64,000 nucleotides of DNA from Streptomyces lunaelactis (lineage in GTDB: Bacteria > Actinomycetota > Actinomycetes > Streptomycetales > Streptomycetaceae): assembly GCF_003054555.1 (NCBI RefSeq), contig NZ_CP026304.1, forward strand, positions 5,270,001-5,334,000, in the 5' to 3' direction. Shown piece by piece: positions 2,765 to 61,869 of the stretch. Position 1 is the first letter of the stretch. Each line of letters begins with the position of its first letter. Made by a program: the position numbers and the translations under genes. The notes under the pieces were generated by a model. It made no database searches, had not been told where the DNA came from, and saw only the letters and a list, made by a program, of their open reading frames with translations.

Positions 2765-4357
2765 CTACCTCAGTTCAACCGCCATCGTCGCCCGCAACCT
2801 CAGCGTTGATACCAAGCGCTGGAACGCCTCCGACCAGTAACCCCCCGCCCCCGGCGACGCCCCCTCCGTCTCGGGCGGTGTCGTCGTAAGGATCTCCAGG
2901 CGGCTCGCCTCGCCCGGGTTCAGGCAGCGTTCCGCCAGGCCCATCACCCCGCTGAAGCTCCAGGGGTAGCTGCCCGCGTCCCGCGCGATGTCGAGTGCGT
3001 CGACCACCGCACGGCCCAGCGGTTCCGCCCACGGCACCGCGCAGACGCCCAGCAGCTGGAACGCCTCCGACAGTCCGTGCGCCGCGATGAACTCCGCGAC
3101 CCAGCCCGCCCGTTCCCCCTCGGGCAGCGTCGCGAGCAGCTTCGCCCGCTCTGCGAGGGACGTCGTGCCGGGACTCGTCTCCGGCGGCGTGCCCGGTGCG
3201 CCGAGGAGGGCGCGGGACCACTCCGCGTCCCGCTGCCGCACCGCCGCCCGGCACCACGCCGCGTGCAGCTCGTCGCCCCAGCCGTCGGCGACGGGCAGCG
3301 CCACGATCTCCGCGGCCGTACGCCCGCCGAACCGTCCCGGCCAGGTGGACAGCGGGGCCGCCTCCACCAACTGGCCCAGCCACCAGGACCGTTCGCCCCG
3401 GCCCGACGGCGGATTCGGCATCACCCCGTCGCGCTGCATGTCCGCATCGCACTCGTGCGGAGCCTCCACGCCTATGCCTGTAGTGCCCTCGCCGCGGTCC
3501 AGGCTGACGCAGGACGCCGCCCGCGCCGCCATCCGCCCGGCCAGCGCGGAGTGCGGCAGCGCGGAGAGCAGCTCGGCCGCCGTGGCGCGGACATTGCGGC
3601 TGCGGTCGGACAGGGCCTGTTCCAGGAAGGGCTCGTCCGCGTCGGTCAGTCCCGTACGCAGGGAGTCCAGGAACATCAGCCGGTCCTCGGCACGCTCTGT
3701 GGACCACGTCGCGGCCAGCAGCGCCAGTGCCGTACCCGCGTCGCGCTCCCGTACGGCGGCCAGCAGCGCGACCCGCTCGGCGAACAGCCCTTCGTCCCAG
3801 AGTCGTTGGACGGCCTCGGGGTCGCCCACGTCCGGCAGGGTGGCACTGCCGGACGCGCCCCGCAGCGCGAACTTCCACTCCGGGTTCAGCCGGGCCAGCC
3901 ACAAGCCGCGCGGCCCGGCGAAGGTGAGGGCCTGCGGCCGCAGGTCCGTACGCGCGCGGGCGGCGTCCAGCAGCGCGGGCAGTACGGACGGCGGCGCCTG
4001 GTACTCGTGCGCGTTGGCGGCGGCGAGCCACTGGGGCAGCAGCTCGGTCAGATCGGGAGCCGTACCGCGCCGCCCCCCGGCGGACGGGGCGGACCGGTCT
4101 GTCAGCAGCTGGGCCAGCCGGCGCCGGGCGGGCGCGGGCAGTTGCGGGCGGGCGTCGTGCGGTGCGGGTTCGGGACGGGCGGCGGCGGGTGCGGGCAGCA
4201 GTCCCGCTCTGCGCCGTACGGTGTGGAGCGCCGCGGCGTCCAGCAGCGCGGTCGGCGCGTCCTTGCCCGGGGTGACGGCTTCGGGCGGCGGCGTGCGGCG
4301 GTCGGTGCCGAGAAGGGCCGAGGTGACGAGCTCTTCCCACAGTGAGGTGCTGGTCAT
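2765..4357 (-). CDS. DUF5691 family protein of the SWIM/MoxR/VWA system
   Basis: A 530-residue protein, Ala/Arg-rich and apparently helical. It opens with WEELVTSALLGTDRR, typical of DUF5691 proteins, and the middle (~residues 190-270) looks like HEAT-type helical pairs (RNVRATAAELLSALP). It has no catalytic motif I can name. GGAGG precedes the ATG at 4357, 15 bp after the stop of the SWIM zinc-finger gene, so the two form one operon. The pair diverges from the MoxR/DUF5682/VWA operon. The context suggests a scaffold or substrate-recognition part of an ATPase-VWA complex, but that is inference; the molecular role is unknown. Confidence 0.75.
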   Translation of the reverse strand: MTSTSLWEELVTSALLGTDRRTPPPEAVTPGKDAPTALLDAAALHTVRRRAGLLPAPAAARPEPAPHDARPQLPAPARRRLAQLLTDRSAPSAGGRRGTAPDLTELLPQWLAAANAHEYQAPPSVLPALLDAARARTDLRPQALTFAGPRGLWLARLNPEWKFALRGASGSATLPDVGDPEAVQRLWDEGLFAERVALLAAVRERDAGTALALLAATWSTERAEDRLMFLDSLRTGLTDADEPFLEQALSDRSRNVRATAAELLSALPHSALAGRMAARAASCVSLDRGEGTTGIGVEAPHECDADMQRDGVMPNPPSGRGERSWWLGQLVEAAPLSTWPGRFGGRTAAEIVALPVADGWGDELHAAWCRAAVRQRDAEWSRALLGAPGTPPETSPGTTSLAERAKLLATLPEGERAGWVAEFIAAHGLSEAFQLLGVCAVPWAEPLGRAVVDALDIARDAGSYPWSFSGVMGLAERCLNPGEASRLEILTTTPPETEGASPGAGGYWSEAFQRLVSTLRLRATMAVELR

Positions 4358-4372
4358 GGAGCCTCCGTACGT

Positions 4373-5749
4373 TCAGATGAGAGGGACCGTCTCGGCCGCG
4401 TGCTTCGACCAGGCGGCGAGCGGCGTGAAGCCCTGGTGCCCGCACTCGCCGAAGACGGTGACCGGATCGCCGCCGGAGAGCGCCGCGAGCTTCCACAGCC
4501 CGGGGCGGGAGAGCGCGGCCGGTGCGATGGGCAGCGCGGACTCGCCCTCGACGTCGGCCAGTTGCCACCCTTCGCCGGCCTGGGGGTGCCTCCCGGGCGA
4601 AGCTCCGGGGGACGGTATGACGCCGCTGAGCGTCACCGGCCAGGAGTCCAGCCAGGGGTCATCCCGCAGGGCCCGTCCGTACGCCTCGACGGCCGCCGCG
4701 GCCGGCCCGCCCGGCGGCGGTGACCCGATCGGGACCGGCGGGCCGAACTGCTCACCCAGATCCGCCCGCAGCTGCCCTGCCCCCGCGTACGGCGTGAGCT
4801 CGGCGTCGATCATCAGCCCCACCGGGAGCGCCTGCTGCGGGGAGCGGCCCGCCGCACCGAAGGAGAGCAGCAGGGCAGTGCGCCCCGACTCCTGCCCGTA
4901 CAGCCAGATACGGCGTGTGGTGATCTTGCTGTCCGACGAGTCGTACTGGGCGAGGATCAGCCAGTGGTCCCGGACCGGTGGGCCCTCGGCGGGTGAGGTG
5001 AGGCCGACTCGGGTCCGGACCGTCGCGGCCAGCGGCTCCGGCAGTCTCTCGATGCCCAGCCAGGCCGCGTCCAGCAGATGGATCAGCGCGCACTCCTCCA
5101 GCAGCCGCACCGGCCAGCCGGGCCCGGACCCCGGTATCGCGCCCAACTCCCTCACCCGGCCGGCCAGGCCCGGCGCCTGGGCGTCGACCATGCGCGCCGC
5201 GGTCTCCTCCCAGAGTCCGTAGCCGGACTGCTCGGCCGATGCCAGGCCGCCGCGCAGCAGATCCGCCATCCGCTGTTCAAGTTCCGTCGCGCCCGCGGCG
5301 ATTCGGGCCGCCCGGCGCTCGGCACGCCGCCTGGCCGCCTCGGGATCGCCGGCCTTCGCGGGCTGCTCCGCGCCCGCGTCGCTCTGTTCCTTGTCGGTGG
5401 CGCGTTTCTTGCGCCCTTCCAGCCACTCCCCGGCCCAGTCCGGCGTCGTGGAGTCCGCTACGGCCTCCTCGTCCGCCGCCCAGAGCAGCAGCAGTCCCAG
5501 CGCGTGCTTGCACGGGAACTTCCGGCTCGGGCAACTGCACTTGTAGGCCGGGCCCGTGGTGTCGACGACTGTCTGGTACGGCTTGCTGCCGCTGCCCTTG
5601 CACAGGCCCCAGACGGCCCCCGAGCCGCTGCTGCCCGCGCCGGACCACGGCCCGGCCGTACCGAGTCGGTTTCCCGCTTTGCGTGACGCGTCGTCAGGAG
5701 CCAGAGCCAGCACCTGTTCCGACGTCCAGCGCACCCCCTGCTGATTCAT
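4373..5749 (-). CDS. SWIM zinc-finger protein (YehQ-like)
   Basis: A 458-residue protein with a SWIM zinc finger, CxCx6CxH: Cys71, Cys73, Cys80 and His82. The rest is helical, and a Lys/Arg-rich segment follows at ~110-150. SWIM domains bind nucleic acid or protein. The protein resembles E. coli YehQ, which sits with YehL (AAA), YehM (DUF5682) and YehP (VWA). I place the start at the ATG at 5749. The -10-like TAGCGT at 5762-5757 ends about seven bases before it and no ribosome site is present, so the transcript is probably leaderless; an in-frame TTG at 5779 would lie upstream of that promoter. It is first in an operon with DUF5691. Confidence 0.8.
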   Translation of the reverse strand: MNQQGVRWTSEQVLALAPDDASRKAGNRLGTAGPWSGAGSSGSGAVWGLCKGSGSKPYQTVVDTTGPAYKCSCPSRKFPCKHALGLLLLWAADEEAVADSTTPDWAGEWLEGRKKRATDKEQSDAGAEQPAKAGDPEAARRRAERRAARIAAGATELEQRMADLLRGGLASAEQSGYGLWEETAARMVDAQAPGLAGRVRELGAIPGSGPGWPVRLLEECALIHLLDAAWLGIERLPEPLAATVRTRVGLTSPAEGPPVRDHWLILAQYDSSDSKITTRRIWLYGQESGRTALLLSFGAAGRSPQQALPVGLMIDAELTPYAGAGQLRADLGEQFGPPVPIGSPPPGGPAAAAVEAYGRALRDDPWLDSWPVTLSGVIPSPGASPGRHPQAGEGWQLADVEGESALPIAPAALSRPGLWKLAALSGGDPVTVFGECGHQGFTPLAAWSKHAAETVPLI

Positions 5750-5756
5750 ACCCGAG

Positions 5757-5779
5757 ACGCTACGGGGCACCACTGACAA
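5757..5779 (-). promoter_or_regulatory. RecA-NDp-like (PafBC-type) DNA-damage promoter of the SWIM operon
   Basis: Read on the minus strand, this is TTGTCAGTG, eight bases, then TAGCGT. It fits the mycobacterial LexA-independent damage promoter TTGTCRGTG-N8-TAnnnT exactly. The -10 is placed so that transcription starts at or next to the ATG at 5749. The match is seen in the sequence; PafBC control is inferred from the mycobacterial precedent. Confidence 0.75.
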
Positions 5780-5816
5780 TCGGTTCTGACCTGCGGCGAC
5801 GGCCGATTGTCAGTGG
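5770..5816. repeat. 14-bp perfect inverted repeat in the divergent promoter region
   Basis: Left arm CCACTGACAATCGG (5770-5783) and right arm CCGATTGTCAGTGG (5803-5816) are exact reverse complements with a 19-bp spacer. Each arm holds one TTGTCAGTG element pointing outward, toward the SWIM gene and the MoxR gene respectively. Confidence 0.85.
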
Positions 5817-5829
5817 CATGGTGCACGGT
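5807..5829 (+). promoter_or_regulatory. Second RecA-NDp-like element, MoxR side (imperfect -10)
   Basis: TTGTCAGTG at 5807-5815 is followed by eight bases and CACGGT at 5824-5829, which keeps the A and last T of TAnnnT but has C for the first T. It lies 38 bp before the MoxR ATG, which has its own GGAGGGGG ribosome site. It may be a weaker or bidirectional damage promoter. Confidence 0.5.
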
Positions 5830-5867
5830 GGATCCCACAACGGGTCGAACGATCTGGAGGGGGATCC

Positions 5868-6980
5868 ATGACCGTGTCCGAAACCGGCACAGCCACCGGC
5901 GCCGAGGCTCTGCGGCCGCACGCCGAGGATGCTTTCGCCGAGGAGCTCAAAGCGCTCGCCGCGGCCGACGACCGGCCGCGGCCGGTCAGATGGCGGTTGT
6001 CGCCGTGGGCCGTCGCCACCTATCTGCTCGGCGGCACGCTGCCCGACGGGACCGTCATCACGCCCAAGTACGTGGGGCCGCGCCGGATCGTCGAGGTCGC
6101 CGTCACGACGCTCGCCACCGACCGGGCGCTGCTGCTCCTCGGCGTGCCGGGCACCGCCAAGACCTGGGTGTCCGAGCATCTCGCCGCGGCCGTCAGCGGC
6201 GACTCCACGCTACTGGTGCAGGGCACCGCGGGCACGCCGGAGGAAGCCATTCGCTACGGCTGGAACTACGCGCAGCTGCTGGCCCACGGCCCCAGCCGGG
6301 ACGCGCTGGTGCCCAGCCCCGTCATGCGCGCGATGTCGGAGGGCATGACCGCGAGGGTCGAGGAGCTGACCCGTATCCCCGCGGACGTACAGGACTCGTT
6401 GATCACGATCCTGTCCGAGAAGATCCTGCCCGTCCCGGAGTTGGGGCAGGAGGTGCAGGCGGTCCGCGGGTTCAATCTCATCGCCACGGCCAATGACCGC
6501 GACCGCGGGGTCAACGACCTCTCCAGTGCGCTGCGGCGCCGGTTCAACACGGTGGTGCTGCCGCTGCCCGCGACGCCGGAGGCCGAGGTCGACATCGTGT
6601 CGCGGCGCGTCGACCAGATAGGGCGCTCGCTCGATCTGCCGGCCGTGCCGGAGGGGCTCGAGGAGATCCGCCGCGTGGTCACCGTCTTCCGGGAGCTGCG
6701 GGACGGGGTCTCGACGGACGGCCGTACCAAGCTCAAGTCGCCCTCGGGGACGCTCTCCACGGCCGAGGCGATCTCCGTGGTCACCGGCGGTCTCGCGCTC
6801 GCCGCGCACTTCGGGGACGGCGTGCTGCGGTCCGGCGACGTGGCGGCCGGCATCCTCGGCGCGGTCGTGCGCGACCCGGCGGCGGACCGGGTCATCTGGC
6901 AGGAGTACCTGGAGACGGTGGTCCGCGAGCGCGACGGCTGGAAGGACTTCTACCGCGCCTGCCGCGAGGTGAGCGTATGA
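5868..6980 (+). CDS. MoxR-type AAA+ ATPase (YehL-like)
   Basis: A 370-residue AAA+ ATPase. Walker A is GVPGTAKT (residues 92-99, Lys98), the Walker B region is around VEELTR (164-169), sensor 1 is Asn209 in ATAND, and an Arg-rich ALRRRF follows at ~221-226. MoxR ATPases work with VWA proteins as chaperone or remodelling machines that mature or activate a partner. Here the partners are the downstream DUF5682 and VWA proteins, translationally coupled in order. It corresponds to YehL of E. coli. The ATG at 5868 has GGAGGGGG upstream. It ends in an ATGA overlap with the next gene. The substrate is unknown. Confidence 0.85.
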   Translation: MTVSETGTATGAEALRPHAEDAFAEELKALAAADDRPRPVRWRLSPWAVATYLLGGTLPDGTVITPKYVGPRRIVEVAVTTLATDRALLLLGVPGTAKTWVSEHLAAAVSGDSTLLVQGTAGTPEEAIRYGWNYAQLLAHGPSRDALVPSPVMRAMSEGMTARVEELTRIPADVQDSLITILSEKILPVPELGQEVQAVRGFNLIATANDRDRGVNDLSSALRRRFNTVVLPLPATPEAEVDIVSRRVDQIGRSLDLPAVPEGLEEIRRVVTVFRELRDGVSTDGRTKLKSPSGTLSTAEAISVVTGGLALAAHFGDGVLRSGDVAAGILGAVVRDPAADRVIWQEYLETVVRERDGWKDFYRACREVSV

Positions 6981-9655
6981 CCGGCCCTCTGCTGCTCGGG
7001 GTGCGCCACCACGGTCCGGGCTCGGCACGCGCGGTGCGGGCCGCGCTGGATGCGGCCGTGCCTCCGGCGGTGCTGATCGAGGGACCGCCGGAGGGGGACG
7101 CCCTGCTGGCGCTCGCGGCGGACGAGCAGATGCGCCCGCCGGTCGCGCTGCTGGCGCACGCGGTGGACGACCCGGGGCGGGCGGCGTTCTGGCCGCTGGC
7201 CGAGTTCTCCCCGGAGTGGGTGGCGATCCGCTGGGCGCTGGAACGCGGGGTCCCGGTGCGGTTCATCGACCTCCCGGCGGCGCATTCGCTGGCGCTGGCC
7301 GCGGCGGAGGAGGCCGCGGAGGAGGCCGCGGAGGAGGAGGCCGCGGCGGCGGGTCTGCCTGCAGCGGAGGCTCCCGGCCTGCCCGCCGGGGCGGGGCCCC
7401 TCCGGGACCGGGCACCCGGCGGTGCCGACGCAGGAGCGGCTGACCCCGAGTGGGACGCCGTGCCGGGTCCGGGCGCGCCCGGGTCGGAGTCCGCCGGAGC
7501 CCTGCCGGTCGCGGGCCGGGCACCTGCTGGTGCTGACCTTGGAGCGGCTGACCCCGAGTGGGATGCCGTGCCTCGAGGCGCGACGCACGGAACGGGCCCG
7601 CGAGCGGGCCACGGCCCGGTCACGGCGGCGGAGCCGGCCGATGGCCCCCCGGCCGGGGGCGGGGAGCCGGGCCCGCCCGATGAGCGCGGGCTGCGGATTG
7701 ATCCCATCGCCGTGCTGGCCGGGACCGCCGGGTACGACGATCCCGAGCGGTGGTGGGAGGACGTCGTCGAACACCGCGGGACGGGGGACGACAGCGGCGA
7801 TCCCCGGGCGGCCTTCCTGGCGCTCGGGGAAGCCATGGCCGCGCTGCGCGAGACCTACGGACACGGCGGGCACGAACGCGATCTCGCGCGCGAAGCCCAT
7901 ATGAGGCTCCAACTGCGGGCCGCGCGGCGTGAGTTCGGGGACAGCGTCGCCGTTGTCTGCGGTGCCTGGCATCTGCCCGCGCTCGAGGAGAGGACCACCG
8001 TCGCTGCCGACAAGGCTCTCCTCAAGGGGCTGCCCAAAGTCAAGACCGAGATGACCTGGGTGCCCTGGACGTACCGAAGGCTCGGCCGGCACAGCGGCTA
8101 CGGCGCCGGGATCGACTCGCCCGGTTGGTACGGGCACCTCTTCGGCGCGCCCGACCGGCCCATCGAGCGGTGGATGACCAAAGTCGCGAGGCTGCTGCGC
8201 GACGAGGACCGACTGGTCTCGTCCGCCCATGTCATCGAGGCCGTACGGCTCGCCGAGACGCTCGCCGCCATGCGCGGGCGGCCGCTCGCCGGGCTGACCG
8301 AGACGACCGATGCGATACGGGCCGTGATGTGCGAGGGCTCCGATGTGCCGCTCGACCTCGTCCGGGACCGGCTCATCGTCGGGGATGTGCTCGGTGAGGT
8401 GCCGGACGCCGCGCCCGCCGTGCCGCTGCAGCGCGACCTGACCCGGCTCCAGCGCGGCCTGCGCCTCAAGGCGGAGGCGCTGGAGCGGGAGCTGGAGCTG
8501 GATCTGCGCAAGGAGACCGACGCGGCGAAGAGCAGGCTGCTGCACCGGCTGCGGCTGCTCTCGATCGGCTGGGGCGAGCCGGTCACGGGACGGGGGAGCA
8601 CCGGCACCTTCCGGGAGAGCTGGCGGCTGCGCTGGGAGCCGGAGCTCTTCGTGAAGCTCGCGGAGGCCGGAGTGTGGGGCACCACGGTGCTCTCCGCCGC
8701 CACTGCGAAGGCCGAGTCGAATGCCGTGTCGACCACCGCCCTCGCCGATGTCACCGCGCTCGCCGAGCAGTGCCTTCTGGCCGAACTGCCCGACGCGCTG
8801 CCGGTGGTGATGAGGGCGCTGGCCGACCGGGCCGCGCTGGACGCGGACGTAGGCCATCTCGCCCAGGCGCTGCCCGCGCTGGCGCGCTCCCTGCGGTACG
8901 GGGACGTGCGGTCGACCGACACGGCCGCGCTGGGCGAGGTCGCGGCCGGGCTCGCCGAGCGGATCTGCGTCGGCCTGCCGCCCGCGTGCACGGGACTCGA
9001 CGCGGACGGCGCTGCCGGGATGCGGGGCCATCTGGACGGGGTGCACACCGCGATCGGGCTGCTGCCGAAGGCCCCGGAGCTGAGCGGGCGTTGGGGCTCG
9101 GTACTGCACCGGCTCGCGGTCCGCGACACCGTGCCCGGGGTCATACGCGGCCGGGCGGCCCGGCTGCTGCTGGACGACGGGCGCCTCGAGGAGGACGAGG
9201 CCGCGCGGCTCATGGGCCTCGCGCTCTCGGTCGGCACCCCGCCCGCCGAAGCGGCCGCCTGGATCGAGGGCTTCGTCGGCGGCGCGTCCGGGGGCGGAAT
9301 GCTCCTGGTTCACGACGAGCGACTGCTCTCACTCGTCGACGCCTGGCTGACCGGTGTGCCGGCGGACGCGTTCACCGACGTGCTGCCGCTGCTGCGCCGC
9401 ACCTTCTCGGCGTACGAACCGGGTGTGCGCCGCACGCTGGGCGAGCTGGTCCGGCGCGGACCCGCGTCGGCTGCTGGTTCCGCGCACGCCGAGTCCACGG
9501 CGCCCGGCTTCGGTGCGGGTCTCGACGGGCCGCGGGCGGACGCGGTGCTGCCGGTGCTGCACCTGCTCCTCGGAACAGGCGTGCCCGGAACTGACGCGCC
9601 CGGAATTGACGTACCCGGTATCGACGACAACGACCTTGTGGGGATGGCCCGATGA
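6977..9655 (+). CDS. DUF5682 family protein (YehM-like)
   Basis: An 892-residue protein whose start, GVRHHGPGSARAV, is the hallmark of DUF5682. A conserved block with SVAVVCGAWHLPAL, around residues 315-330, and a long C-terminal helical region are also present. Between ~105 and 240 lies a low-complexity Ala/Glu/Pro/Gly insert with an imperfect duplication of the module AADPEWDAVP. The ATG overlaps the MoxR stop by 4 bp and its own stop overlaps the VWA start by 4 bp, indicating tight co-translation. E. coli YehM is the comparable protein. It may be the effector or a target of the ATPase, but no catalytic residues have been assigned that I can name. Confidence 0.78.
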   Translation: MTGPLLLGVRHHGPGSARAVRAALDAAVPPAVLIEGPPEGDALLALAADEQMRPPVALLAHAVDDPGRAAFWPLAEFSPEWVAIRWALERGVPVRFIDLPAAHSLALAAAEEAAEEAAEEEAAAAGLPAAEAPGLPAGAGPLRDRAPGGADAGAADPEWDAVPGPGAPGSESAGALPVAGRAPAGADLGAADPEWDAVPRGATHGTGPRAGHGPVTAAEPADGPPAGGGEPGPPDERGLRIDPIAVLAGTAGYDDPERWWEDVVEHRGTGDDSGDPRAAFLALGEAMAALRETYGHGGHERDLAREAHMRLQLRAARREFGDSVAVVCGAWHLPALEERTTVAADKALLKGLPKVKTEMTWVPWTYRRLGRHSGYGAGIDSPGWYGHLFGAPDRPIERWMTKVARLLRDEDRLVSSAHVIEAVRLAETLAAMRGRPLAGLTETTDAIRAVMCEGSDVPLDLVRDRLIVGDVLGEVPDAAPAVPLQRDLTRLQRGLRLKAEALERELELDLRKETDAAKSRLLHRLRLLSIGWGEPVTGRGSTGTFRESWRLRWEPELFVKLAEAGVWGTTVLSAATAKAESNAVSTTALADVTALAEQCLLAELPDALPVVMRALADRAALDADVGHLAQALPALARSLRYGDVRSTDTAALGEVAAGLAERICVGLPPACTGLDADGAAGMRGHLDGVHTAIGLLPKAPELSGRWGSVLHRLAVRDTVPGVIRGRAARLLLDDGRLEEDEAARLMGLALSVGTPPAEAAAWIEGFVGGASGGGMLLVHDERLLSLVDAWLTGVPADAFTDVLPLLRRTFSAYEPGVRRTLGELVRRGPASAAGSAHAESTAPGFGAGLDGPRADAVLPVLHLLLGTGVPGTDAPGIDVPGIDDNDLVGMAR
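7430..7580 (+). repeat. Internal duplication in the DUF5682 gene
   Basis: The ~30-bp stretch beginning GAGCGGCTGACCCCGAGTGG occurs near 7433 and again near 7541. It encodes two AADPEWDAVP modules in a Gly/Ala/Pro-rich linker. It looks like a slippage-prone in-frame insert rather than part of the folded core. Confidence 0.7.
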
Positions 9656-10821
9656 AGGAGACCGCGTACGACGAGCGGCTGCGGCGGTGGCGGCTCGTGC
9701 TCGGTGGGGAGTCCGGGGGAGGTACCGGCTGCGCGCTCGCCGGTACGGACGTGGCGATGGACGGCGCCCTGACCGCGCTCTACGGCGCCGACAAGGGCGC
9801 CGGCAACCGCGGCGGCGGCAATCGTTCGGCCGGGCTCGGCGCTTCCGCGCCGTCCGTCGCGCGCTGGCTCGGCGACATCCGTACGTACTTCCCCAGCTCC
9901 GTCGTCCAGGTCATGCAGCGTGACGCGATCGACCGGCTCGGCCTGTCCGCACTGCTGCTGGAGCCGGAGATGCTGGAGGCCGTCGAGGCGGACGTCCATC
10001 TCGTCGGCACCCTGCTCTCCCTCAACAAGGCGATGCCCGAGACGACCAAGGAGACGGCCAGGGCTGTCGTACGCAAGGTCGTCGACGATCTCGAGAAGCG
10101 GCTCGCGACCCGCACCAGGTCCACCCTCACCGGGGCGCTCGACCGGTCCGCGAAGATCAACCGGCCGCGCCACCGGGACATCGACTGGGACCGCACCATC
10201 CGGGCCAACCTCAAGAACTACCTGCCGGAGTTCAACACGGTCGTGCCCGAACGGCTCGTCGGATACGGACGCGCGTCCCAGTCCGTGAAGAAGGACGTGG
10301 TGCTCTGCATCGACCAGTCGGGTTCGATGGCGGCCTCCGTCGTGTACGCCTCCGTCTTCGGCGCGGTCCTGGCGTCCATGCGCTCCATCGCCACCCGCCT
10401 CGTCGTCTTCGACACCGCGGTCGTCGACCTCACCGACCAGCTCGACGACCCGGTGGACGTCCTCTTCGGCACTCAGCTCGGCGGCGGCACCGACATCAAC
10501 AGGGCGCTCGCGTACTGCCAGTCGCAGATCACCCGCCCCGCCGACACCGTCGTCGTACTGATCAGCGATCTCTACGAGGGCGGCATACGGGACGAAATGC
10601 TCAAGCGGGTCGCGGCGATGAAGGCGTCCGGTGTGCAGTTCGTCGCACTGCTGGCACTGTCCGACGAAGGAACGCCCGCGTACGACCGCGAGCACGCGGC
10701 GGCTCTGGCGGCGCTGGGCGCACCGGCCTTCGCCTGTACGCCGGACCTCTTCCCGGATGTCATGGCGGCCGCGATCGAGAAAAGGCCACTGCCCATACCG
10801 GACATGGCGACTCATCAGTAA
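9652..10821 (+). CDS. VWA domain protein with intact MIDAS (YehP-like)
   Basis: A 389-residue protein with a helical N-terminal half and a C-terminal von Willebrand A domain. All MIDAS elements are present: DQSGS (Asp221, Ser223, Ser225), Thr280 in GGGTD, and Asp306 in ISDLYEGG, so metal-dependent ligand binding is expected. There is no signal peptide, so it is cytoplasmic. It is the third gene of the MoxR operon, coupled by ATGA to DUF5682, and matches YehP. VWA partners of MoxR ATPases usually act as adaptors that bring the ATPase to its substrate. Confidence 0.85.
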   Translation: MKETAYDERLRRWRLVLGGESGGGTGCALAGTDVAMDGALTALYGADKGAGNRGGGNRSAGLGASAPSVARWLGDIRTYFPSSVVQVMQRDAIDRLGLSALLLEPEMLEAVEADVHLVGTLLSLNKAMPETTKETARAVVRKVVDDLEKRLATRTRSTLTGALDRSAKINRPRHRDIDWDRTIRANLKNYLPEFNTVVPERLVGYGRASQSVKKDVVLCIDQSGSMAASVVYASVFGAVLASMRSIATRLVVFDTAVVDLTDQLDDPVDVLFGTQLGGGTDINRALAYCQSQITRPADTVVVLISDLYEGGIRDEMLKRVAAMKASGVQFVALLALSDEGTPAYDREHAAALAALGAPAFACTPDLFPDVMAAAIEKRPLPIPDMATHQ

Positions 10822-59319: not shown

Positions 59320-61815
59320 TTACCCGTCCCGGCGTATCTGAGCGGTGATCGTGCGGTCGGTGATCCTCGTGTCGTCCGCCAGCAGGAACGCCTTAGAGAT
59401 GATCACCGACAACAGTCCGCCGTCCTCCTCGAAGGGCAGGAAGAGCCGCTCCCGGCTCTCGCCCGTCGCCGAACGGTCCACCACGACACAGAGATTGGCG
59501 TCGTTGGGCTCCATCAGGATGTTGCCCGAGCCGAGGTGGATCTTGTACGCACGGAGCTCGCCGCGCACCCGCAGGAAGCGGTCCGTCAGCTCCACGCGGT
59601 CCGCGATCCGGGTCCGCGGCAGCAGCCGGGCCAGCGACTCCCGCCGTATCCGCGCCGACTCGGTCAGCTCGCCGAACGCCCACCTCTTCCAGTAGCCGTC
59701 GTACGCGCGCTCCGCCCCGCGGTCCCGCCACTGCGGATCCGCACCGATCGACGCAACACCCACGAACAGGTCCGCGTCCCGCATCGCCTCCGTCAGCACC
59801 AGCGGCGGTACGTCGACGAGGTCGCCCCGCTCCCACGGCCCGCGCGCCCCGCGCCGCCGCTCGAAGCGGACCTGGTCCGTGGAGCAGAGCGACGCGAGCC
59901 CGCCATCCGCATCGCGCCGCTCGACCAGCTCGACATGGAACCTGGCGCGCCAGAACTCACCCTCGGACGTGGGGAGGTCACCGGCCCGGGGAAGCTCCCG
60001 CACCATCTCGGCCGCGTTTGCGTCGCCGTACCCCAGATGGCTGCCCGTCCAGCCGCGCTCCACCATCAGCGCCTTCGCCTGGGGGTAGCGCAGGATGTGA
60101 CCCGCGAACCGGTTGGAGTAGGTGCGGGTCGCCTCCTCGGCCCGGGTGAGCGGATAGACCTCGCGGAAGGCCTGCTTGAACGGCTGACGCAGCTCGCGGT
60201 CGGCGAGCTCCTCGCGCCAGGCGCCTGTCTCCTCGGCCTCCGCGCCCACCGGATGCCACAGCCGCAGCAGCGCCCCCTCCGTCACCGGGAGCGCCGTGCC
60301 GTCGGCCGCGGCCAGTGCCCAGCCGCCCGCCATGCGCTCCGGCAGGCCCGCGCTCCACCGCTCGCCGCCGTCGCGGCTCATCTCCCAGATCAGGGCGCGG
60401 GCCAGGGCGCCGGTCACCGGATGGTCGATGTAGTACTGCTCCCAGTCCCCGGTCGCCCAGCGGGTGCCCGCCATCAGATGCTCTTCGAGCCGCCAGCGCT
60501 CGACCGGCATCAGGGCACGCAACTGTTTCAACGCACCGCGAATATCGGTCAGTTGCTCGCCGAACTCCTCCCGGACCGCCTTCGGTGCGGACCTCAGCAC
60601 CCGGCCCTGCGGCCCCCGGAAGGAGAGCGTGGCCGCCGCGGAGGCGGTGATCGACAGCACCGCGGTGTAGTCGGCGAGCGGCTGCTCGCGGATGCCGCGC
60701 GCATCGAGGCCCACGGACGGCACGGCCCGTTCCCTGAGCATCGACGGGGTGATTCCAGCGCGTTCGGCGACAGCCTGCAGGGAGGCGGAGACGCCCTTGA
60801 CCACCGTGCGGTTGCGGATCTTGTGCTGCAGTCTGCCGAGCCAGTCGACGGCCGGCCCGCCCTGCGCACCGCCGAAGTCGCCGAGGACGGCGACCGCGGT
60901 CGTGGCCATCCTGCCGCTGCGGCAGTCACCGCCGGAACCGCCCGTCCCCGTGCCGGCGTTGAGCGCCACCGCGCCGACGGCCGGCACCACCCAGTCCGCC
61001 TCTACGTCCGCGGCGGCCCACAGCAGCCCGCGCAGCAGCCGGGTGTTGCCCTCCGCCGCGATCCCCGGCACGGTGTACCGGCCGACCCAGGTGGGCGCCG
61101 CCAACGGATGATGCTCCCGTTGCCCCGCCATCCCCTCCAGCAGCGCCCGCACCACGTCGGGACCGCCCTCCGCGCGGTTCACCAGCGTCGCCGCCTCCTT
61201 GCGCCACCGTTTGGTGGCGCGCACCTTGTCCTGGCGCATGCAGTGCCACAGGAGGTCGTTGACGCCAGGAGCGGCGAGCAGCGCGCCGTGGGCGGCTCGC
61301 ATCGCAGGTCCGTAGTCATCGAAGGCGTCGAGCAGTTCGTCCGACAGCCCGGTGGCGTCAGGCTCCGTCCCCGCCAGCTCGTCGAGCTGCTCCCGCATGC
61401 TCTCGGGCCGGCCCCCCGTGAAGAGCAGCCATCGGCGCAGCGATCGCACCAGCCCCCGGTCGTACTCCCCGGCCGTGCGGGCCGCCGCCAGCGCGGGTCC
61501 TACCAGCGGCACGAACGCCCCCAGCAGGGTGAGCAGATCGACCTGCGCACGCTTGCCCGCCAGCCGCCCGAGCAGCTCGTCGGCCTGCCGCGCATTCCAG
61601 TCGAGCCGCTGCGCCGCCGCCCAGTCGAGCACCCCCAGACTGACGTCGTCCACGCCGCCGTCGATGACGTACTGGTGGAACCAGAGCGCGGCCTCCCGCT
61701 GCTCCGGCTCCTCCAGCGACTCCAGCAGCTCCCGCACCGGCGGACCCTCGCCCGTGCGCTCCCGCCACCCCGCCTCGTACAGCCTGCTCTCCAGGCCGTC
61801 CGTCATCGCCGTCAT
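59320..61815 (-). CDS. DUF4132 protein (YehI/MolR-like) under a damage-type promoter
   Basis: An 831-residue protein. The N-terminal part is helical (HEAT-like, LWFHQYVIDGGVDDV...). The DUF4132 region is in the middle to C-terminal half (VERWRLEEHLMAGTRWATGD, then EQYYIDHPVTGALARALIWE, and KQAFREVYPLTRAEEATRTY). In E. coli the DUF4132 proteins YehI and MolR are encoded with YehL, YehM, YehP and YehQ; here it lies about 50 kb from those homologs. ATG 61815 has GGGGAGGGG upstream. Its promoter carries the same TTGTCAGTG element. The molecular function is unknown. Confidence 0.8.
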   Translation of the reverse strand: MTAMTDGLESRLYEAGWRERTGEGPPVRELLESLEEPEQREAALWFHQYVIDGGVDDVSLGVLDWAAAQRLDWNARQADELLGRLAGKRAQVDLLTLLGAFVPLVGPALAAARTAGEYDRGLVRSLRRWLLFTGGRPESMREQLDELAGTEPDATGLSDELLDAFDDYGPAMRAAHGALLAAPGVNDLLWHCMRQDKVRATKRWRKEAATLVNRAEGGPDVVRALLEGMAGQREHHPLAAPTWVGRYTVPGIAAEGNTRLLRGLLWAAADVEADWVVPAVGAVALNAGTGTGGSGGDCRSGRMATTAVAVLGDFGGAQGGPAVDWLGRLQHKIRNRTVVKGVSASLQAVAERAGITPSMLRERAVPSVGLDARGIREQPLADYTAVLSITASAAATLSFRGPQGRVLRSAPKAVREEFGEQLTDIRGALKQLRALMPVERWRLEEHLMAGTRWATGDWEQYYIDHPVTGALARALIWEMSRDGGERWSAGLPERMAGGWALAAADGTALPVTEGALLRLWHPVGAEAEETGAWREELADRELRQPFKQAFREVYPLTRAEEATRTYSNRFAGHILRYPQAKALMVERGWTGSHLGYGDANAAEMVRELPRAGDLPTSEGEFWRARFHVELVERRDADGGLASLCSTDQVRFERRRGARGPWERGDLVDVPPLVLTEAMRDADLFVGVASIGADPQWRDRGAERAYDGYWKRWAFGELTESARIRRESLARLLPRTRIADRVELTDRFLRVRGELRAYKIHLGSGNILMEPNDANLCVVVDRSATGESRERLFLPFEEDGGLLSVIISKAFLLADDTRITDRTITAQIRRDG

Positions 61816-61846: not shown

Positions 61847-61869
61847 ACGTTACGGCGCGCCACTGACAA
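61847..61869 (-). promoter_or_regulatory. RecA-NDp-like (PafBC-type) DNA-damage promoter of DUF4132
   Basis: On the minus strand, TTGTCAGTG, eight bases (GCGCGCCG), then TAACGT: an exact match to TTGTCRGTG-N8-TAnnnT. The transcript would begin ~25 bases before the ATG and include its ribosome site. It is the same element as at 5757-5779. Confidence 0.75.

Follow-up and report, generated by a model that had tools for sequence, protein, structure and literature searches.

The divergent genes for a SWIM zinc-finger protein and a MoxR-type ATPase in Streptomyces lunaelactis are separated by an intergenic region that contains a perfect inverted repeat. This arrangement raises the question of whether the repeat is a single operator or a pair of promoters, and to which signal the genes on either side would respond. 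The region was analyzed within a window of 64,000 nucleotides (G000:C1:5270001-5334000), the whole stretch of DNA studied, to which all coordinates refer.

Gene Content of the SWIM/MoxR Locus

The intergenic region is flanked by two genes on the minus strand and three genes on the plus strand.

4373..5749, minus strand: SWIM zinc-finger protein, 458 aa (Pfam SWIM, 6.7e-06)
2765..4357, minus strand: DUF5691 protein, 530 aa, the next gene after SWIM (Pfam DUF5691, 9.5e-177)
5868..6980, plus strand: MoxR-type AAA+ ATPase, 370 aa (Pfam AAA_5)
6977..9655, plus strand: DUF5682 protein, 892 aa, YehM-like (Pfam DUF5682, 5.8e-293)
9652..10821, plus strand: VWA_CoxE protein, 389 aa, YehP-like (Pfam VWA_CoxE, 8.6e-61)

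A 615-aa frame downstream of the VWA gene had no Pfam match and was left out of the operon. The cluster had been described as a YehLMPQ-like system and was compared with Escherichia coli. MoxR, DUF5682, and VWA_CoxE stand in YehLMPQ-type order, with identities of 38% between MoxR and YehL, 24-41% between the DUF5682 protein and YehM (in two stretches), and 37% between the VWA_CoxE protein and YehP. The SWIM protein and YehQ both have the Pfam SWIM domain; their pairwise alignment was not beyond chance. The E. coli yehF-yehH-yehI-yehK-yehL-yehM-yehP-yehQ cluster (NC_000913) has MoxR, DUF5682, VWA_CoxE, and a SWIM protein in common with the Streptomyces locus, with DUF4132 (YehI) nearby. In contrast to the E. 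coli cluster, the Streptomyces genes are divergent, their SWIM protein cannot be aligned to YehQ, DUF5691 gave no match there, and the DUF4132 gene lies ∼56 kb away under its own box.

A PADLOC search for defense systems gave no match for any of the six proteins submitted, and a known defense system was dropped as a candidate. The vWA-MoxR ternary conflict systems, which in the excerpt of PMC7159879 consist of MoxR, vWA, and a third protein and occur in Actinobacteria, resemble the cluster in this composition and in host phylum. In the Streptomyces cluster, however, the third protein is DUF5682, VMAP or iSTAND matches were not found in Pfam, and the bpMoxR model scored 23.7 on the cluster MoxR, below its cut-off of 27. 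By analogy with other MoxR-VWA pairs (excerpt of PMC7159879), the MoxR, VWA, and SWIM proteins would be expected to perform ATP-driven remodeling of a protein target. That this might take place on damaged DNA through the SWIM domain is a guess.

Two Probable Promoters in the Inverted Repeat

Five elements were located between the SWIM and MoxR genes.

5770..5783, no strand: left arm of the 14-bp inverted repeat, CCACTGACAATCGG (sequence check)
5803..5816, no strand: right arm of the 14-bp inverted repeat, CCGATTGTCAGTGG (sequence check)
5757..5779, minus strand: SWIM-side RecA-NDp-type promoter, TTGTCAGTG-GTGCCCCG-TAGCGT (exact motif; conserved in the genus)
5807..5829, plus strand: MoxR-side promoter, TTGTCAGTG-GCATGGTG-CACGGT, with a CAnnnT-type -10 (box conserved in the genus; CAnnnT common at spacer 8)
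5786..5794, minus strand: element E, GCAGGTCAG, upstream of the SWIM-side box by 6 nt, with 12 nt between it and the MoxR-side box

The first-pass annotation had reported a perfect 14-bp inverted repeat in this region, which is correct to the base; no extension of the arms is possible. The RecA-NDp consensus of mycobacteria is TTGTCRGTG-N8-TAnnnT. On the SWIM side, the TTGTCRGTG box, the 8-nt spacer, and the TAnnnT -10 are all present, and the exact fit claimed for TTGTCAGTG-N8-TAGCGT was confirmed. The -10 had further been said to run straight into the start codon, and indeed 7 nt lie between TAGCGT and the SWIM ATG at 5749 (minus strand). The SWIM mRNA is therefore expected to be leaderless. 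On the MoxR side, the box and the 8-nt spacer are present, but the -10 is CACGGT and does not match the published TAnnnT. It is followed by a 38-nt leader and the MoxR ATG at 5868 (plus strand).

The use of different -10 sequences was tallied for 100 listed sites out of 186 in the genome (28 TTGTCAGTG and 72 TTGTCGGTG). Among the 28 TTGTCAGTG sites, a spacer of 8 was followed by TAnnnT in 8 cases, CAnnnT in 7, and GAnnnT in 4, and no -10 pattern was found more than once at any of the other spacers between 0 and 13. The 72 TTGTCGGTG sites showed no clear excess at spacer 8 (TA 1, CA 2, GA 2), so that in this genome mainly the A form counts. dinB, polA, and ligA lie behind CAnnnT at spacer 8, and their start codons follow after 7 nt. 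Because it is about as frequent as TAnnnT at this spacer, CAnnnT looks like an accepted -10 of the RecA-NDp class in this genome, which rehabilitates the MoxR side. The earlier assignment, which had placed the motif on the SWIM side, can be corrected accordingly: judged by its sequence, the MoxR side is likewise a promoter of the RecA-NDp type, with a CAnnnT -10.

Distribution of the Motif in the Genome and the Genus

In the genome (8.57 Mb), 24 exact TTGTCRGTG-N8-TAnnnT sites were found, compared with 0.19 expected from the base composition of the window. The variable base of TTGTCNGTG-N8-TAnnnT was A in 23 of these sites and G in 1. With up to one mismatch, there were 96 sites (24 exact and 72 with one mismatch) versus 19 for the reversed pattern, and 90 of the 96 loci were inspected (24 exact, 66 of the 72 one-mismatch). 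recA lies behind an exact site, with its start 7 nt past the -10. Exact sites also precede the genes for uracil-DNA glycosylase (ung), methylguanine methyltransferase, an AlkZ-like glycosylase, dnaX, and a DinG/YoaA-type helicase, as well as genes without an evident repair role (PhoH, PrsW protease, ABC transporters, an ECF-type sigma factor, and ribosomal protein S6). The genes downstream of three exact sites (L003, L004, and L007) had no family match, and at a fourth (L014) no downstream gene was found by the script. A start codon 6-9 nt past the -10 was present in 11 of the 24 exact loci. One-mismatch sites precede ligA, dinB, polA, gyrA, uvrB, dnaE, radA, dnaQ, ruvC, and genes for an Lhr-like helicase, an exonuclease/polymerase, and a UvrD/PcrA-like helicase; most of these proteins are truncated by the end of the locus, and many of the family matches fall under the curated cut-off. 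Other one-mismatch sites fall within genes and look like chance occurrences.

A genome scan for the motif before repair genes had been proposed as a check of the first-pass annotation, which a lack of enrichment would have refuted; the annotation withstood this check. In the scan, recA, repair genes, and the SWIM and MoxR operons were found to share the motif, and the reading of the region as a DNA-damage promoter type is supported at the level of sequence. The motif was in excess in all 14 genus genomes counted, with 10-40 exact sites each and 341 in total versus 3 for the reversed pattern.

Several individual sites were noted. An exact RecA-NDp-type promoter (L001:1501-1523; G000:C1:315209) lies 8 nt before an HD and DEAD-box helicase gene that looks like cas3, which makes a damage-induced CRISPR effector possible. 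Further exact sites precede genes for a GmrSD_N protein (L008), a protein with a weak VWA match below the cut-off (L023), the PrsW protease (L011), and the ECF-type sigma factor (L018). Two genomes of family f17, G153 and G135, contain 119 and 63 exact sites; many of the sites listed for G135 have one common spacer, which suggests a repeat carrying the motif.

Candidate Regulator

Eight WYL-domain matches were found in the genome. Two of the WYL proteins are neighbors and match PafB and PafC chains in the solved structures 7p5x and 9fnd, with best E values to solved-structure chains of 1.2e-55 (PafB) and 1.2e-53 (PafC), and the same two proteins match the PafB and PafC halves, respectively, of the fused PafBC 6sj9. 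On the basis of these matches, PafB and PafC are encoded in the genome. According to the excerpt of PMC11804915, PafBC is triggered by single-stranded DNA and redirects the housekeeping RNA polymerase. This mode of action would presumably apply in Streptomyces as well, and the SWIM and MoxR operons are predicted to be PafBC-dependent and damage-induced.

Conservation and Operon Arrangement

The SWIM-side promoter was conserved at 12/12 positions in all 80 named Streptomyces loci, which are the best 80 of 549 SWIM relatives, all Streptomyces and without S. venezuelae. The first in-frame start in these loci was an ATG at +7 in 69 and at +6 in 2, and an in-frame codon at +1 came first in 9. In another genus set, the SWIM-side promoter was exact in 26 of 27 loci (that of the window included) and had one mismatch in the remaining locus; this set comprises 30 genus loci minus L065, L067, and L068, for which the N terminus was unaligned.

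A MoxR-side box with a CAnnnT -10 was present in all 108 Streptomyces loci examined. In 75 of these it is paired with a SWIM box within 200 bp and has a TGGTGCA spacer; in the other 33 a CAnnnT box lies upstream of MoxR, and its first base varies in 5. The SWIM and MoxR starts are 448-849 bp apart in 30 of the 33 unpaired loci. In these loci (e.g. L041 and L202) several hundred extra bp separate the SWIM and MoxR promoters, and a small gene is apparent in some. The MoxR-side spacer TGGTG-CA, unlike the SWIM-side spacer, is invariant in 53 named paired loci; three genus loci depart from it.

Outside the genus, 41 genomes had a SWIM match, of which 40 were taken (all except G014), and 34 loci remained after removal of L103-L108, which had no SWIM hit. 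At 6-8 nt upstream of the SWIM start, 18 of the 34 loci have a box-like promoter with a score of at least 10/12. The score was 12/12 in 3 loci and 8-9 in 12, and no SWIM-side box was found at the expected place in 4 (L076, L080, L088, and L096). On the opposite strand of the same 34 regions, a score of 10 was reached anywhere in 2. The SWIM, MoxR, DUF5682, and VWA genes were co-directional in all 9 loci examined outside the genus, and DUF5691 follows SWIM in 7 of the 9. From this arrangement we infer that an ancestral operon was split and one half inverted in the Streptomyces line, each half with a box.

Three other explanations of the region were weighed against these data. A perfect 14-bp inverted repeat with an extra conserved element, E, between its arms could form one operator of a dedicated dimeric regulator, the RecA-NDp likeness being incidental. 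This is very improbable given that the gap between the boxes ranges from 25 to 187 bp across the 75-locus set, that the box is still found upstream of MoxR in the 30 loci with distant starts, that each box retains its N8 spacer and -10, and that outside the genus a box-like promoter occurs before SWIM alone. The palindromic operator was rejected on the grounds that the gap varies and that the two boxes are separable in relatives; the inverted repeat is two separate promoters back to back at varying distance. It is also unlikely, although less so, that the SWIM side is the sole PafBC promoter and that the MoxR-side CACGGT box is used otherwise or is a nonproductive PafBC site. The departure of CACGGT from TAnnnT would fit this explanation, as would the invariance of the MoxR spacer in the 53 named paired loci, which the SWIM spacer does not share. 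Against it stand the similar counts of CAnnnT and TAnnnT behind TTGTCAGTG at spacer 8 (7 and 8 of 28) and the occurrence of CAnnnT before dinB, polA, and ligA, 7 nt from their start codons. Finally, the two operons might belong to the LexA/SOS regulon, and repair genes are indeed found among the other motif-bearing genes. The SOS box has the form GAAC-N4-GTTC, however, and its best match in 5750-5867 reaches only 6/8 positions. LexA control was set aside because the intergenic region contains no good SOS box, and we consider it very improbable. Two RecA-NDp-type promoters, one for each operon, remain the preferred explanation.

Spacing between the Two Boxes

The paired pattern was found in 255 of 392 genus genomes, and the reversed pattern in none among the rows listed. 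In the 150 matches listed out of these 255 genomes, the gap was 25-28 (14 matches), 36-38 (83), 47-51 (33), 60-62 (18), or 71-72 bp (2), with no other values. When distinct gaps were counted once, the best period was 11.5 bp (p = 0.0002, 5,000 random draws). For the 75-locus set, the test was restricted to the 73 gaps below 80 bp, which excludes the two of 171 and 187 bp; it gave 11.4 as the best period, with p = 0.0005, the lowest value that 2,000 draws can yield. The 75-locus set and the 150-genome list overlap in genomes and are not independent. Two distances measured from the MoxR box, one to the ribosome site and one to the start, served as controls and gave p values of 0.98 and 1.0 on distinct values (103 of 108 loci). 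Counted per locus, however, the box-to-ribosome-site distance clusters at 25-28 and 36-38 nt, ∼11 bp apart. The per-locus R was 0.93 for the gap, 0.69 at 11.4 for the box-to-ribosome-site distance, and 0.39 for the box-to-start distance; for the 74 paired loci, the box-to-ribosome-site distance gave an R of 0.76 at 11.0. Because this distance clusters too, although no phasing is expected for it, the control is not clean.

The history of the gap was followed on a quick tree of 77 SWIM proteins, representing those of the 108 loci with a script-readable SWIM protein; 19 of its 72 inner branches are weak. Among paired loci, at least 13 changes of gap class were found; when only well-supported branches are considered, each of four gap classes still requires 3-4 changes. 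The changes land on the grid, except one to the 187-bp gap. The number of class changes on the tree was 18, compared with a shuffled mean of 40.9. Tandem similarity within the spacers showed a weak excess at lags of 10-13 (8.0 versus 7.1 of 12 in the longest class), and a 10-of-12 tandem copy was found in none of the 26 longer spacers.

Judging from these distances, selection of the gap for helical phase is probable but unproven. The wider proposal is that the two PafBC promoters and E form one unit that is kept in helical register in vivo, where insertions and deletions would survive as whole turns of ∼11.4-11.8 bp. We had regarded this as evenly balanced and now place it slightly below that, because the box-to-ribosome-site control also clusters. 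Alternatively, the stepped gap may be unselected and reflect a few ancestral lengths or the stepwise duplication of an 11-12-bp unit, an explanation that is less likely but deserves serious consideration. Close relatives share gap classes, as the low number of changes relative to the shuffled tree indicates, so that shared ancestry accounts for part of the pattern; the weak tandem excess and the similar clustering of the box-to-ribosome-site distance in the 74 paired loci are in line with it. It is harder to reconcile with repeated class changes (at least 13, fewer by well-supported branches), all but one of them on the grid, with the lack of 10-of-12 tandem copies in the longer spacers, and with control distances that are aperiodic on distinct values.

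Element E

GCAGGTCRG with at most one mismatch was present in 71 of the 75 paired intergenic regions, whereas mononucleotide-shuffled regions gave a mean of 2.8 and a maximum of 7. E points at one box at a distance of 5-6 nt (66/70) or 17 nt (4/70), and the other box is 11-12, 22-23, 34-35, 45-46, or 57 nt away (70 loci). The direction of E changed at least twice on the quick tree; such changes would result if the spacer were flipped between the inverted boxes, which is speculation.

E was initially favored as an element of the SWIM/MoxR locus only. This was overturned by matches of the composite GCAGGTCRG-N3..8-NTGTCRGTG in 87 of 101 genus genomes, with 1 to 7 occurrences per genome and 2 in this one; the pattern is loose and catches some non-promoter sites, and its reversed control gave 9 matches among the rows listed. 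The genes behind the composite encode an Lhr-like helicase, a pentapeptide-repeat protein, a protein with a weak ketosteroid-isomerase-type match, SWIM, and family-less proteins. GCAGGTCRG-N5/6-TTGTCAGTG was also seen at several promoters of other Streptomyces genomes (L307 and L289-L306). In this genome, E at a spacing of 5-6 with at least 7/9 positions occurred at 5 of 70 promoters, compared with 0-2 elsewhere on the same strand and at most 3 on the other strand, and the case for E as a general part of PafBC promoters is weak here. The own-genome promoters were kept by judgment, 52 and 70 of 90 loci in two separate analyses of E.

A Second Site before a DUF4132 Gene

Apart from the SWIM-side promoter, the window contains one exact motif site.

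61847..61869, minus strand: further exact RecA-NDp-type promoter, the second in the window, 31 nt upstream of the DUF4132 gene (motif scan)
59320..61815, minus strand: DUF4132/DUF7737 protein, 831 aa, relative of E. coli YehI (family match, YehI comparison)

The DUF4132 protein is 25% identical to YehI over about 300 residues. In E. coli, yehK is the one gene between the DUF4132 gene yehI and yehL. A study of expression in repair-deficient E. coli (PMC2447237) matched for yehI; the search terms are absent from the excerpt of its main text. A DUF4132 match was found in 13 of the 31 genus genomes searched. Of the 30 DUF4132 loci fetched, 10 have a box, and 9 of these 10 are among the 11 genus loci; a box anywhere in the locus was counted, at whatever distance and before whatever gene. 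These observations suggest, as a lead only, that the DUF4132 gene and the SWIM/MoxR cluster might be scattered parts of one co-regulated system. Elsewhere in Streptomyces, some loci (e.g. L185 and L182) have a small gene of ∼130 aa with a leaderless box before DUF4132; the copy in L185 had no Pfam match.

Discussion

Taken as a whole, the intergenic region is best explained as a bidirectional DNA-damage promoter. We consider this explanation likely, with induction, PafBC binding, contact between complexes, and the role of the proteins as its predicted parts. One RecA-NDp-type promoter would drive SWIM-DUF5691 as a leaderless mRNA and the other MoxR-DUF5682-VWA. Upon DNA damage, PafBC on single-stranded DNA would assist RNA polymerase carrying the housekeeping sigma factor at both promoters, and all five proteins of the MoxR/VWA system would increase alongside recA and further repair genes. 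The two boxes and E would tend to sit on a fixed helix face relative to each other, and contact would probably be made by the complexes at the two promoters or by a protein that binds E. The cluster proteins may then have a role in recovery from damage.

The predicted system shares with the mycobacterial RecA-NDp/PafBC regulon the motif, a leaderless start 7 nt from the -10, targets that include recA and repair genes, and PafB/PafC. It differs in its Streptomyces host, in back-to-back promoters with stepped spacing, in the CAnnnT -10 class, and in new target genes. Within Streptomyces, RecA-NDp promoters are known for recA and SCO6735, the latter being UV-inducible (excerpt of PMC5087735). These are of the same type and from the same genus as the SWIM/MoxR promoters, but they are single promoters of single genes, and the excerpt of PMC5087735 contains no genome-wide set or pairing. 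A 2022 study of S. venezuelae reported that an initial search suggested that the Mycobacterium smegmatis PafBC motif is not conserved, and left open whether a LexA-independent damage response exists in Streptomyces (excerpt of PMC9380542). Our counts speak against nonconservation of the motif for the genus genomes counted; S. venezuelae is not among the named loci. Among the open-access matches listed, none was, by title and start of the abstract, a paper on a MoxR/SWIM/VWA system in DNA damage.

Because the motif marks a repair-gene set in the genome studied and all 14 genus genomes counted have it in excess, the existence of a LexA-independent response in Streptomyces is now testable. The YehLMPQ-like system, for which the literature search gave no description of a role, would gain a physiological setting, and the gap classes provide a spacing series for promoter biophysics. 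If the helical register is true, the locus would serve as a natural ruler of helical phasing made by evolution, and direct contact of PafBC-RNA polymerase complexes, or of an E-binding protein, would follow at both promoters of a damage-induced MoxR/VWA machine.
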